Shown one piece after another: positions 5,353 to 45,566 of a stretch of DNA of 64,000 bases (its first letter is position 1; each line of letters opens with the position of its first letter). The DNA lies in the NCBI RefSeq assembly GCF_000014225.1, contig NC_008228.1, positions 2,976,001 to 3,040,000 of the forward strand, read 5' to 3'. Position numbers and translations under genes: made by a program. This DNA comes from Paraglaciecola sp. T6c (GTDB taxonomy: Bacteria; Pseudomonadota; Gammaproteobacteria; Enterobacterales; Alteromonadaceae). The notes below the pieces were generated by a model. That model worked only from the letters and a program-made list of their open reading frames with translations. It did not search any database and was not told the DNA's origin.

Positions 5353-5776
5353 CCAGACATTTGTTCGAACAGCGTGGATTTTCACCCTCACTACCGACTC
5401 GGCGAAGACAGAAAAGCCTACGGATACAGTTTTTGATTTAACTATCTAGTGACATTAAAACAGTGCGAGGAGTGTACTCAAGCACTTCCCTGTGCATGAC
5501 GCTACGCGCGCCAGCCGCGGTAATGAATGTTCCAGACATTCGTTCGAACCGCGGGGGTTCTCACCCTCATTACCGACACAGCGAAAACGGAAAAGCCTAC
5601 AGATACAGTTTTTGATTTAACTATCTAGTGACATTAAAACAGTGCGAGGAGTGTACTCAAGCACTTCCCTGTGCCTGACGCTACGCGCGCCTGCGGCGGT
5701 AATGAATGTTCAAGACATTCGTTCGAACAGCGTGGGTTTCCCCCCTCACTACCGACACAGCAAAAACAAAAAAGCC
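5353..5776. repeat. 179-bp tandem repeat, about 2.4 copies
   Basis: Three anchors recur at exactly 179-nt spacing: CCAGACATT or CAAGACATT at 5353, 5532 and 5711, and CAGTGCGAGGAGTGTACTCA at 5461 and 5640. Copy 1 is 5353-5531, copy 2 is 5532-5710, and copy 3 is 5711 to about 5776, where it merges into the arm of the tRNA-Ser terminator. Each unit contains a GAATGT/ACATTC hairpin, flanked in copy 2 by a CCGCGGT/ACCGCGG outer stem, then a TTCGAAC box and a degenerate AAAAGCC arm. Frames in the repeat (for example from 5642) appear spurious. It lies just downstream of two tRNA-Ser genes read leftward. Confidence 0.85.
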
Positions 5777-5808
5777 CCAACGAACAACGTTGAGGCTTTT
5801 TTGTTTTT
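5761..5808 (-). terminator. Terminator of the tRNA-Ser pair
   Basis: Inverted repeat with an AAAAACAAAAAAGCC arm and a GGCTTTTTTGTTTTT arm around CCAACGAACAACGTTGA. On the minus strand the stem ends in a long T-run about 2-49 nt past the tRNA-Ser 3' end. It is symmetric enough to act in both directions. Its left arm is homologous to part of the 179-bp repeat unit. Confidence 0.8.
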
Positions 5809-5809
5809 A

Positions 5810-5901
5810 TGGCGGATAGCGAGGGATTCGAACCCCCGGTAGGTTTGACCCTACGTCTGATTTCAAGTCAGGTGCATTAAACCGAGCTCTGCCAGCTATC
5901 C
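5810..5901 (-). tRNA. tRNA-Ser (anticodon UGA), copy 2
   Basis: Minus-strand 92-nt class II cloverleaf with acceptor GGATAGC/GCTATCC, discriminator G, anticodon loop CTTGAAA (TGA), long variable arm, T-arm GGGGGTTCGAATCCC and encoded CCA at 5810-5812. It is the same as the tRNA at 5961 except at acceptor positions 4 and 7 and their pairing partners. The pair is separated by 59 nt and is probably co-transcribed. Confidence 0.96.
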
Positions 5902-5960: not shown

Positions 5961-6052
5961 TGGCGGAGAGGGAGGGATTCGAACCCCCGGTAGGTTTGAC
6001 CCTACGTCTGATTTCAAGTCAGGTGCATTAAACCGAGCTCTGCCACCTCTCC
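5961..6052 (-). tRNA. tRNA-Ser (anticodon UGA), copy 1
   Basis: Minus-strand 92-nt class II cloverleaf with acceptor GGAGAGG/CCTCTCC, discriminator G, anticodon loop CTTGAAA (TGA), long variable arm and encoded CCA at 5961-5963. It is promoter-proximal to the second tRNA-Ser(UGA). The acceptor stem with G1-C72 and G2-C71 is the usual serine form. Confidence 0.97.
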
Positions 6053-44528: not shown

Positions 44529-45566
44529 GTGACCGATAATAAACCCTCCTTAAGCTATAAAGACGCAGGTGTCGACATCGATGCGGGCAATGAACTTGTC
44601 GAAAGAATCAAATCTGTAAGCAAGAAAACACATCGCCCTGAAGTCAGAGGAGGTTTAGGTGGTTTCGGCGCGCTTTGCTCACTTCCAACTAAATATAAAG
44701 AGCCGCTGCTCGTTTCAGGCACCGATGGCGTAGGTACTAAACTGCGTTTAGCCATGGATTTAGAGCAACATGATGGCATCGGCATCGACCTAGTCGCAAT
44801 GTGCGTCAATGATCTAATCGTTCAAGGTGCTGAGCCGTTATTTTTCTTAGACTATTACGCTACTGGCAAGCTTGATGTTGATACCGCAGCCAAAGTGGTC
44901 ACAGGTATAGGCAAGGGTTGCGAATTATCGGGTTGCGCATTAATCGGTGGCGAAACCGCTGAAATGCCAGGTATGTATCACGGTAACGATTATGACGTTG
45001 CAGGTTTCTGTGTCGGCGTTGTAGAAGCTGCCGACGTAATTGATGGAAGCCGTGTAAAAGCAGGAAATGTGTTAATTGCGCTGGGCTCTTCTGGCCCACA
45101 CTCTAACGGTTACTCCTTGGTGCGTAAGATACTCGAAGTATCAGGTTGTGAGGCCAGTGAAGTATTTGATGGTAAGCCATTATCAGAGCATTTGCTCGAA
45201 CCTACACGCATTTATGTAAAGTCAGTCCTTCATTTATTAGAGAGTGTACAGGTGAATGCAATTACCCATATCACTGGTGGTGGTTTTTGGGAAAACATTC
45301 CTCGTGTATTACCTCAAGGCACAAAAGCCGTTATCGACGAAAGTAGCTGGCAGTGGCCAAGTATATTCAACTGGCTGCAAGAAAATGGCAATGTAACCAC
45401 ACACGAAATGTACCGTACTTTTAACTGTGGCGTAGGTTTGATGATAGCGCTTGAAGCGGACAAAGCCGACGAAGCGATCGCGATCCTAAAAAGCCAAGGC
45501 GAAAATGTATGGCAAATTGGCCATATTGAAGACAGCAGTGATAACAATCAGGTTGAGATTAAATAG
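44529..45566 (+). CDS. purM: Phosphoribosylformylglycinamidine cyclo-ligase
   Basis: AIR synthetase of purine biosynthesis. The frame starts with a GTG at 44529, giving 345 aa and [20 protein letters not shown], which matches E. coli; the TTG-initiated extension is rejected. Conserved parts: [33 protein letters not shown] and [15 protein letters not shown]-containing AATAGG precedes the GTG. Its TAG overlaps the purN GTG, giving the usual purMN operon. Confidence 0.96.

Follow-up and report, generated by a model that had tools for sequence, protein, structure and literature searches.

A partly decayed TLR array behind tRNA-Ser(UGA) in Paraglaciecola sp. T6c is related to the rRNA-operon TLRs of Escherichia coli and carries candidate CsrA-binding hairpins

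Background

tRNA-linked repeats (TLRs) have been known since 1978 and have no agreed function (PMC8144298). They occur in tRNA and rRNA operons immediately behind the RNA gene, as one unit or several in tandem. Escherichia coli K-12 has 22 TLRs at ten loci, in which 18–19 bp of the 3' end are identical to the end of the upstream tRNA or rRNA; a starvation-recovery role was claimed for the tyrT repeat and later withdrawn by its authors (PMC8144298). RrA, RrB and RrF, the TLRs of the rRNA operons rrnA, rrnB and rrnD, are reported to bind CsrA and Hfq, and RrB RNA reportedly arises when transcription reads through terminator T1 (PMC8144298). Binding of CsrA by RrB requires GGA motifs, two of which lie in hairpin loops, yet RrB is a weaker CsrA ligand than CsrB and its phenotypes are modest; its copied 5S end has been suggested to be an RNase E signal (PMC8144298). 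The 19 TLRs that lie in E. coli tRNA operons are predicted not to bind CsrA (PMC8144298).

We analysed a stretch of 64,000 nucleotides (the window; NC_008228.1, positions 2,976,001 to 3,040,000) from the 5.19-Mb chromosome of Paraglaciecola sp. T6c. A preliminary description, made from the sequence alone, had likened a tandem repeat in the window to the tyrT repeats of E. coli. The repeat is almost certainly a TLR array, of a known kind and unusual in detail.

Results

The array and its host tRNA

TRF found one strong array in the window, at 5353–5776 (period 179, 2.4 copies, 90% matches, 0% indels, score 715; Table 1), in agreement with the periodicity given in the preliminary description. 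Because the two tRNA-Ser(UGA) genes (5810–5901 and 5961–6052) are on the minus strand, the array is downstream of both, and the first core begins 64 nt behind tRNA-Ser on the same strand. The terminator (5762–5806, minus strand) folds at -26.1 kcal/mol (z -7.4). Its 3' arm and every unit have the anchor GGCTTTTxxGTTTTxGCTGTGTCGG in common, so the sharing of anchors noted earlier holds. Each unit contains a structured core of about 100 nt, and the cores of units 1 and 2 are spaced exactly 179 bp apart. The box and hairpin ascribed to each unit are also there, as GTTCGAAC and a hairpin; the TTCGAAC box is one of the conserved motifs of the core and no copy of the T-loop. A coding unit with a conserved small protein, as in the tyrT repeat, was ruled out, because the 179-bp period is not divisible by 3 and every frame contains stops.

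Table 1 Features of the tRNA-Ser(UGA) locus, in window positions
Feature	Position	Strand	Basis
tRNA-Ser(UGA), first of pair	5961..6052	-	ARAGORN, Rfam
tRNA-Ser(UGA), second gene, host tRNA of the array	5810..5901	-	ARAGORN, Rfam
Intrinsic terminator 3' of host tRNA; its 3' arm is the start of the tandem unit	5762..5806	-	Fold, sequence
Tandem array, 2.4 units of 179 bp	5353..5776	-	TRF
Unit 1, 5' arm, antisense of host tRNA T-arm, eroded	5732..5753	-	Sequence comparison
Unit 1, structured core, R1 97.4 bits	5647..5746	-	R1 search
Unit 1, hairpin 2, loop CUUGA, GGA lost	5704..5720	-	Sequence, loop survey
Unit 1, hairpin 4, loop AGGGAA with ANGGA	5658..5677	-	Sequence, loop survey
Unit 1, remnant of tRNA 3'-end copy, TCCTCGC	5644..5650	-	Comparison with intact units of relatives
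Copy of terminator 3' arm, start of unit 2	5581..5600	-	Sequence
Unit 2, 5' arm, antisense of host tRNA T-arm (GAGGG-TGAGAA-CCCCCG)	5552..5574	-	Sequence comparison
Unit 2, structured core, R1 111.6 bits (one of the 12 R1 training sequences)	5468..5567	-	R1 search
Unit 2, hairpin 2, loop CUGGA	5525..5541	-	Sequence, loop survey
Unit 2, hairpin 4, loop AGGGAA	5479..5498	-	Sequence, loop survey
Unit 2, remnant of tRNA 3'-end copy, TCCTCGC	5465..5471	-	Comparison with intact units of relatives
Unit 3, truncated remnant, R1 21.4 bits	5309..5388	-	R1 search

The units of the window are partly decayed. Their tails and arms are eroded, with only TCCTCGC retained of the 18–19 bp of tRNA-identical 3' end that define a TLR, and unit 3 is truncated. 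Both GGA loops are present in unit 2 and one of two in unit 1, the ANGGA of hairpin 4 being kept in both full units. The fold of unit 2 is no better than that of its shuffles (z -0.74), compared with z -3.8 for an intact unit of a relative. Elsewhere in the window, a 16/19 copy of the tRNA-Gly(GCC) 3' end (796–814) lies 50 nt behind its gene and before tRNA-Cys, and is perhaps another decayed tail repeat; TRF also reported a short tandem repeat at 44915–44947 (15 bp, 2.1 copies).

Comparison with described TLRs and CsrA sponges

We built a covariance model of the core, R1, from 12 aligned units that came only from genomes of the window's genus, E. coli being absent. In 7.4 kb of E. coli sequence, including the rRNA operon ends, R1 matched RrF (29.9 bits), RrB (27.7 bits) and RrA (27.7 bits), with E values of 8e-7 to 3e-6, and gave no match to rttR, which places the array with the RrB type. 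The likeness to the tyrT repeats stands in kind and anatomy, but the closest E. coli relatives are RrA, RrB and RrF. Like the units here, these have core hairpins with GGA loops, lie between two terminators and carry at their 3' end a copy of the end of the RNA gene that precedes them. They differ in that this gene is a 5S rRNA instead of a tRNA and that the 5' arm shows no evident antisense match to the 5S end; in RrB a further GGA lies in the third hairpin loop (CCCGGAGGG), which is GNA in the R1 family. In contrast to the tRNA-operon TLRs of E. coli, the tRNA-linked units here have RrB-type loops.

The comparison with rttR/RtT (RF00391; E. coli tyrT-tyrV) was borne out in anatomy and short motifs. 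Both arrays consist of tandem units of about 178 bp behind a tRNA, and the tyrT units share with those here an antisense T-arm at the 5' end, in which TGAGAA replaces TTCGAA, the motifs GGTTCGAC and CCCGAAGGG, and a tRNA 3' end at the 3' end. The central hairpins of rttR, however, are without GGA loops, and its tpr-like protein is not conserved in the array. The Rfam RtT model found no match in the window at E 10 or in the T6c genome at E 1, and all Rfam models up to E 10 returned only tRNA and chance matches in the array region. A related unit (L008) reaches 30.1 bits with RtT against a cut-off of 45, and intermediates are matched by both RtT and R1 (L050, L057, L101, L129 and others). Sponges of the CsrB, CsrC and McaS type also present GGA in hairpin loops, a likeness for which we claim no homology; in comparison, the units here have few sites per RNA, show no promoter of their own and are bound to tRNA operons.

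Distribution in the genus and the order

Copies beside other tRNA genes, a search for which had been suggested, occur in the T6c genome and in its relatives. A DNA search revealed a second site in T6c, behind tRNA-Trp. Of the 22 genomes searched in the genus, 15 gave matches, which lay behind tRNA-Ser(UGA), Trp and Glu; wherever a tRNA was present at these loci, the unit was downstream of it on the same strand. In relatives with intact units, the locus runs from the tRNA through its terminator to the antisense arm and the core, after which come an exact copy of the 3' part of the tRNA, from T-loop to CCA, a terminator copy and the next unit. The exact spacer pattern of the unit had no match in the genome contigs searched, a looser core pattern matched three Paraglaciecola genomes, and a pattern search of viral contigs gave no match.

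With R1, five matches below E 1e-3 were found in T6c at four loci (two array units, two at tRNA-Trp and one at tRNA-Glu), all of them 38–243 nt behind tRNA-Ser, Trp, Trp or Glu; a tRNA-Pro unit and the truncated third array unit scored lower. Across the order, 57 of 295 genomes had matches. Among 74 matches examined, 39 follow a same-strand tRNA (Ser, Asp, Glu, Trp, Arg, Lys, Gln or Tyr) or tmRNA, and most of the remainder belong to a dispersed class that has no tRNA and in which the core hairpins are the same and the ends differ. Weak R1 matches without a tRNA also occur in T6c (L032, L033, L035 and L036), their hairpins and GGA loops mostly kept, and members of the dispersed class in other genera (L043, L053 and L058) have inverted-repeat ends such as TTACTTTTCTT/AAGAAAAGTAA. 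One R1 element (L038, G015:C48:93254-96353) lies behind a tmRNA-like 3' fragment, and a nearby ORF, translated by eye, is a candidate AlpA-type excisionase; this locus is possibly the edge of an integrated island.

Core types follow the host tRNA within the genus, the Trp units of two species, for example, being closer to each other than to the Ser units of the same genome. The orthologous tRNA-Ser locus holds none to three units, with traces of decay, and the unit is dispensable, because several species have none there.

Census of tRNA 3'-end copies

In T6c, 8 of 27 tRNA regions contain a tRNA 3'-end copy (at least 16/19) outside the tRNA gene, namely Glu, Trp (two), Pro, Leu(CAA), Val, Met and the tRNA-Gly/tRNA-Cys interval. 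Tail identity is at least 18/19 in the Trp, Glu, Pro, Val, Met and Leu units of this genome, and at least 18 nt are exact in many relatives. Several of these cores are unrelated to R1; the tail copy is therefore the common feature and the core is variable. Behind tRNA-Val(UAC) lie tandem 126-bp units that each end in a tRNA 3'-end copy and have a core unmatched by R1 (L147, C1:3538705-3540050). In one region, each of two tRNA-Met(CAU) loci has three or four units behind it, about 115 bp long, in which the 3' part of the tRNA recurs from the variable loop onward (L156, C1:2724704-2726590), and tRNA-Leu(CAA) is followed by copies of its own 3' end with yet another core (L161, C1:4277593-4278580). 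At positions 874–1301 of a further locus (L040), three sub-threshold matches to Rfam AaHKsRNA22, spaced by 167 bp, lie upstream of a tRNA-Ser that has tail repeats of its own; this sRNA family, known from Aggregatibacter, is possibly a tail repeat as well.

Conserved RNA structure and GGA loops

The hairpins covary between copies, an outcome on which the idea of a comparable tRNA-tail RNA had been staked. In a MAFFT alignment of the 12 units, 93.6% of cells are paired across four stem-loops and the closing pairs, and 13 of 25 pairs show double changes, as high a value being reached in 0 of 500 shuffles; RNAalifold, unprompted, returned stems identical to those counted. Among 125 R1 matches, whose alignment, unlike that of the 12 units, was fitted to the R1 model, double changes occur in all 25 pairs (660 cells, against 183 in shuffles). 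GGA is kept in the loops that correspond to the two GGA loops of RrB, in loop 2 of 116/125 and loop 4 of 113/125 matches (CNGGA and ANGGAN), a conservation partly built in because the model contains GGA, while the surrounding stems vary freely. Hairpin 4 often reads RUACANGGAUGUAY, which appears close to the CsrA consensus, RUACARGGAUGU. The conserved GGA hairpins look like candidate docking sites for CsrA. T6c has a csrA gene, some 400 bp away from a tRNA-Ser(GCU)-Arg-Arg cluster (region C1:3642024-3642985).

Ends matched to the host tRNA

We compared the 5' arms of 66 elements with an upstream tRNA (39 from R1, 27 from Rfam RtT) with the antisense of the host end and of 38–53 tRNA ends for other amino acids. 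The host ranked first among the 39–54 tRNAs in 42 of 66 elements, where one or two are expected. The matched region extends over the T-arm into part of the acceptor strand, ATTCGAA being replaced by ATGAGAA; copying beyond the T-arm on the inner side was ruled out, identity being at background past the T-stem. Arms pair more strongly with the 3' end of their own host (-14.0 kcal/mol) than with the ends of other hosts (-10.4 kcal/mol; p 0.0004 over 33 non-redundant hosts), and tail copies start within the T-loop. The match of the arm to its host may reflect either copying or selection for pairing. No description of a host-specific antisense arm was found in the accessible literature.

Discussion

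We propose, at a probability of roughly 0.45 for the whole, that these RrB-type TLRs are transcribed by terminator read-through and titrate CsrA in a manner tied to growth rate. Some tRNA-Ser transcripts would pass the terminator into the array, and the unit RNA would fold into hairpins whose CNGGA and ANGGAN loops may bind CsrA. Titration of CsrA by units freed in tRNA processing would then keep pace with tRNA synthesis, and so with growth rate. In intact units, the 5' antisense T-arm copy and the 3' copy of the host tRNA end could form a closing stem, which would also give tRNA 3'-processing enzymes a known substrate. Arrays would expand and contract by recombination between units, the repeat boundary here lying in the terminator arm. 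The strong terminator ahead of the array, the presence of only two GGA loops per unit, the weaker CsrA binding and modest phenotypes of RrB itself (PMC8144298), the partly built-in GGA conservation, the eroded window units with the GGA loss in unit 1 and the weak fold of unit 2, and the dispensability of the unit at the orthologous tRNA-Ser locus count against this proposal.

The same loci may be read as selfish or neutral DNA, a small, once mobile element whose ends match its tRNA target, with hairpins and GGA loops recognized at the DNA level (for example, in single-stranded form by a transposase or recombinase), tail copies that keep the host tRNA intact, like those of integrative elements that target tRNA genes, and arrays as by-products of recombination. 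Both ends track the host tRNA, as the 42 of 66 first ranks indicate, and tail copies start within the T-loop, a known crossover region of integrases. The dispersed class, with its tRNA-free inverted-repeat ends around the same core hairpins, and the variation from none to three copies at the orthologous tRNA-Ser locus also fit. We nevertheless consider a selfish or neutral origin less likely than CsrA titration: no enzyme gene was found at the loci, recent movement is not seen because core types go with the host tRNA within the genus, and the homologous GGA loops of RrB have a partner at the RNA level (PMC8144298). Slightly less probable again is that plain tandem duplication left a functionless, decaying relic in T6c, a view compatible with the CsrA proposal for intact units elsewhere. 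The eroded tails, the GGA loss in unit 1, the truncated unit 3, the weak fold and the absence of the unit from some species all suit a relic, whereas the ANGGA loop of hairpin 4, kept in both full units, and the intact covarying units retained by relatives do not. An accessory of tRNA processing or termination, in which a decoy 3' end shields the transcript end or backs up termination while the antisense arm sequesters the copied 3' end from invading the real tRNA, seems improbable, as it leaves the conserved GGA loops unexplained and most tRNA units of T6c are without such an element. It would accord with the terminator copies that come after the tRNA 3'-end copy in intact units, with the stronger pairing of the arm to its own host and with the RNase E signal suggested for RrB (PMC8144298).

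Returning to CsrA titration, GGA loops conserved on covarying stems, behind tRNAs as well as rRNA, point to one protein partner. It is a more doubtful extension that TLRs form an ancient system of the Gammaproteobacteria: numerous tRNA and rRNA operons would each have a CsrA decoy of their own, which would tie CsrA activity to the synthesis of stable RNA, and the unit ends would re-adapt to the tRNA in front of them. The host-specific antisense arm is a clue to the origin and persistence of TLRs. What this locus chiefly yields is a testable link between TLRs and CsrA across the family, together with an end structure matched to the host.
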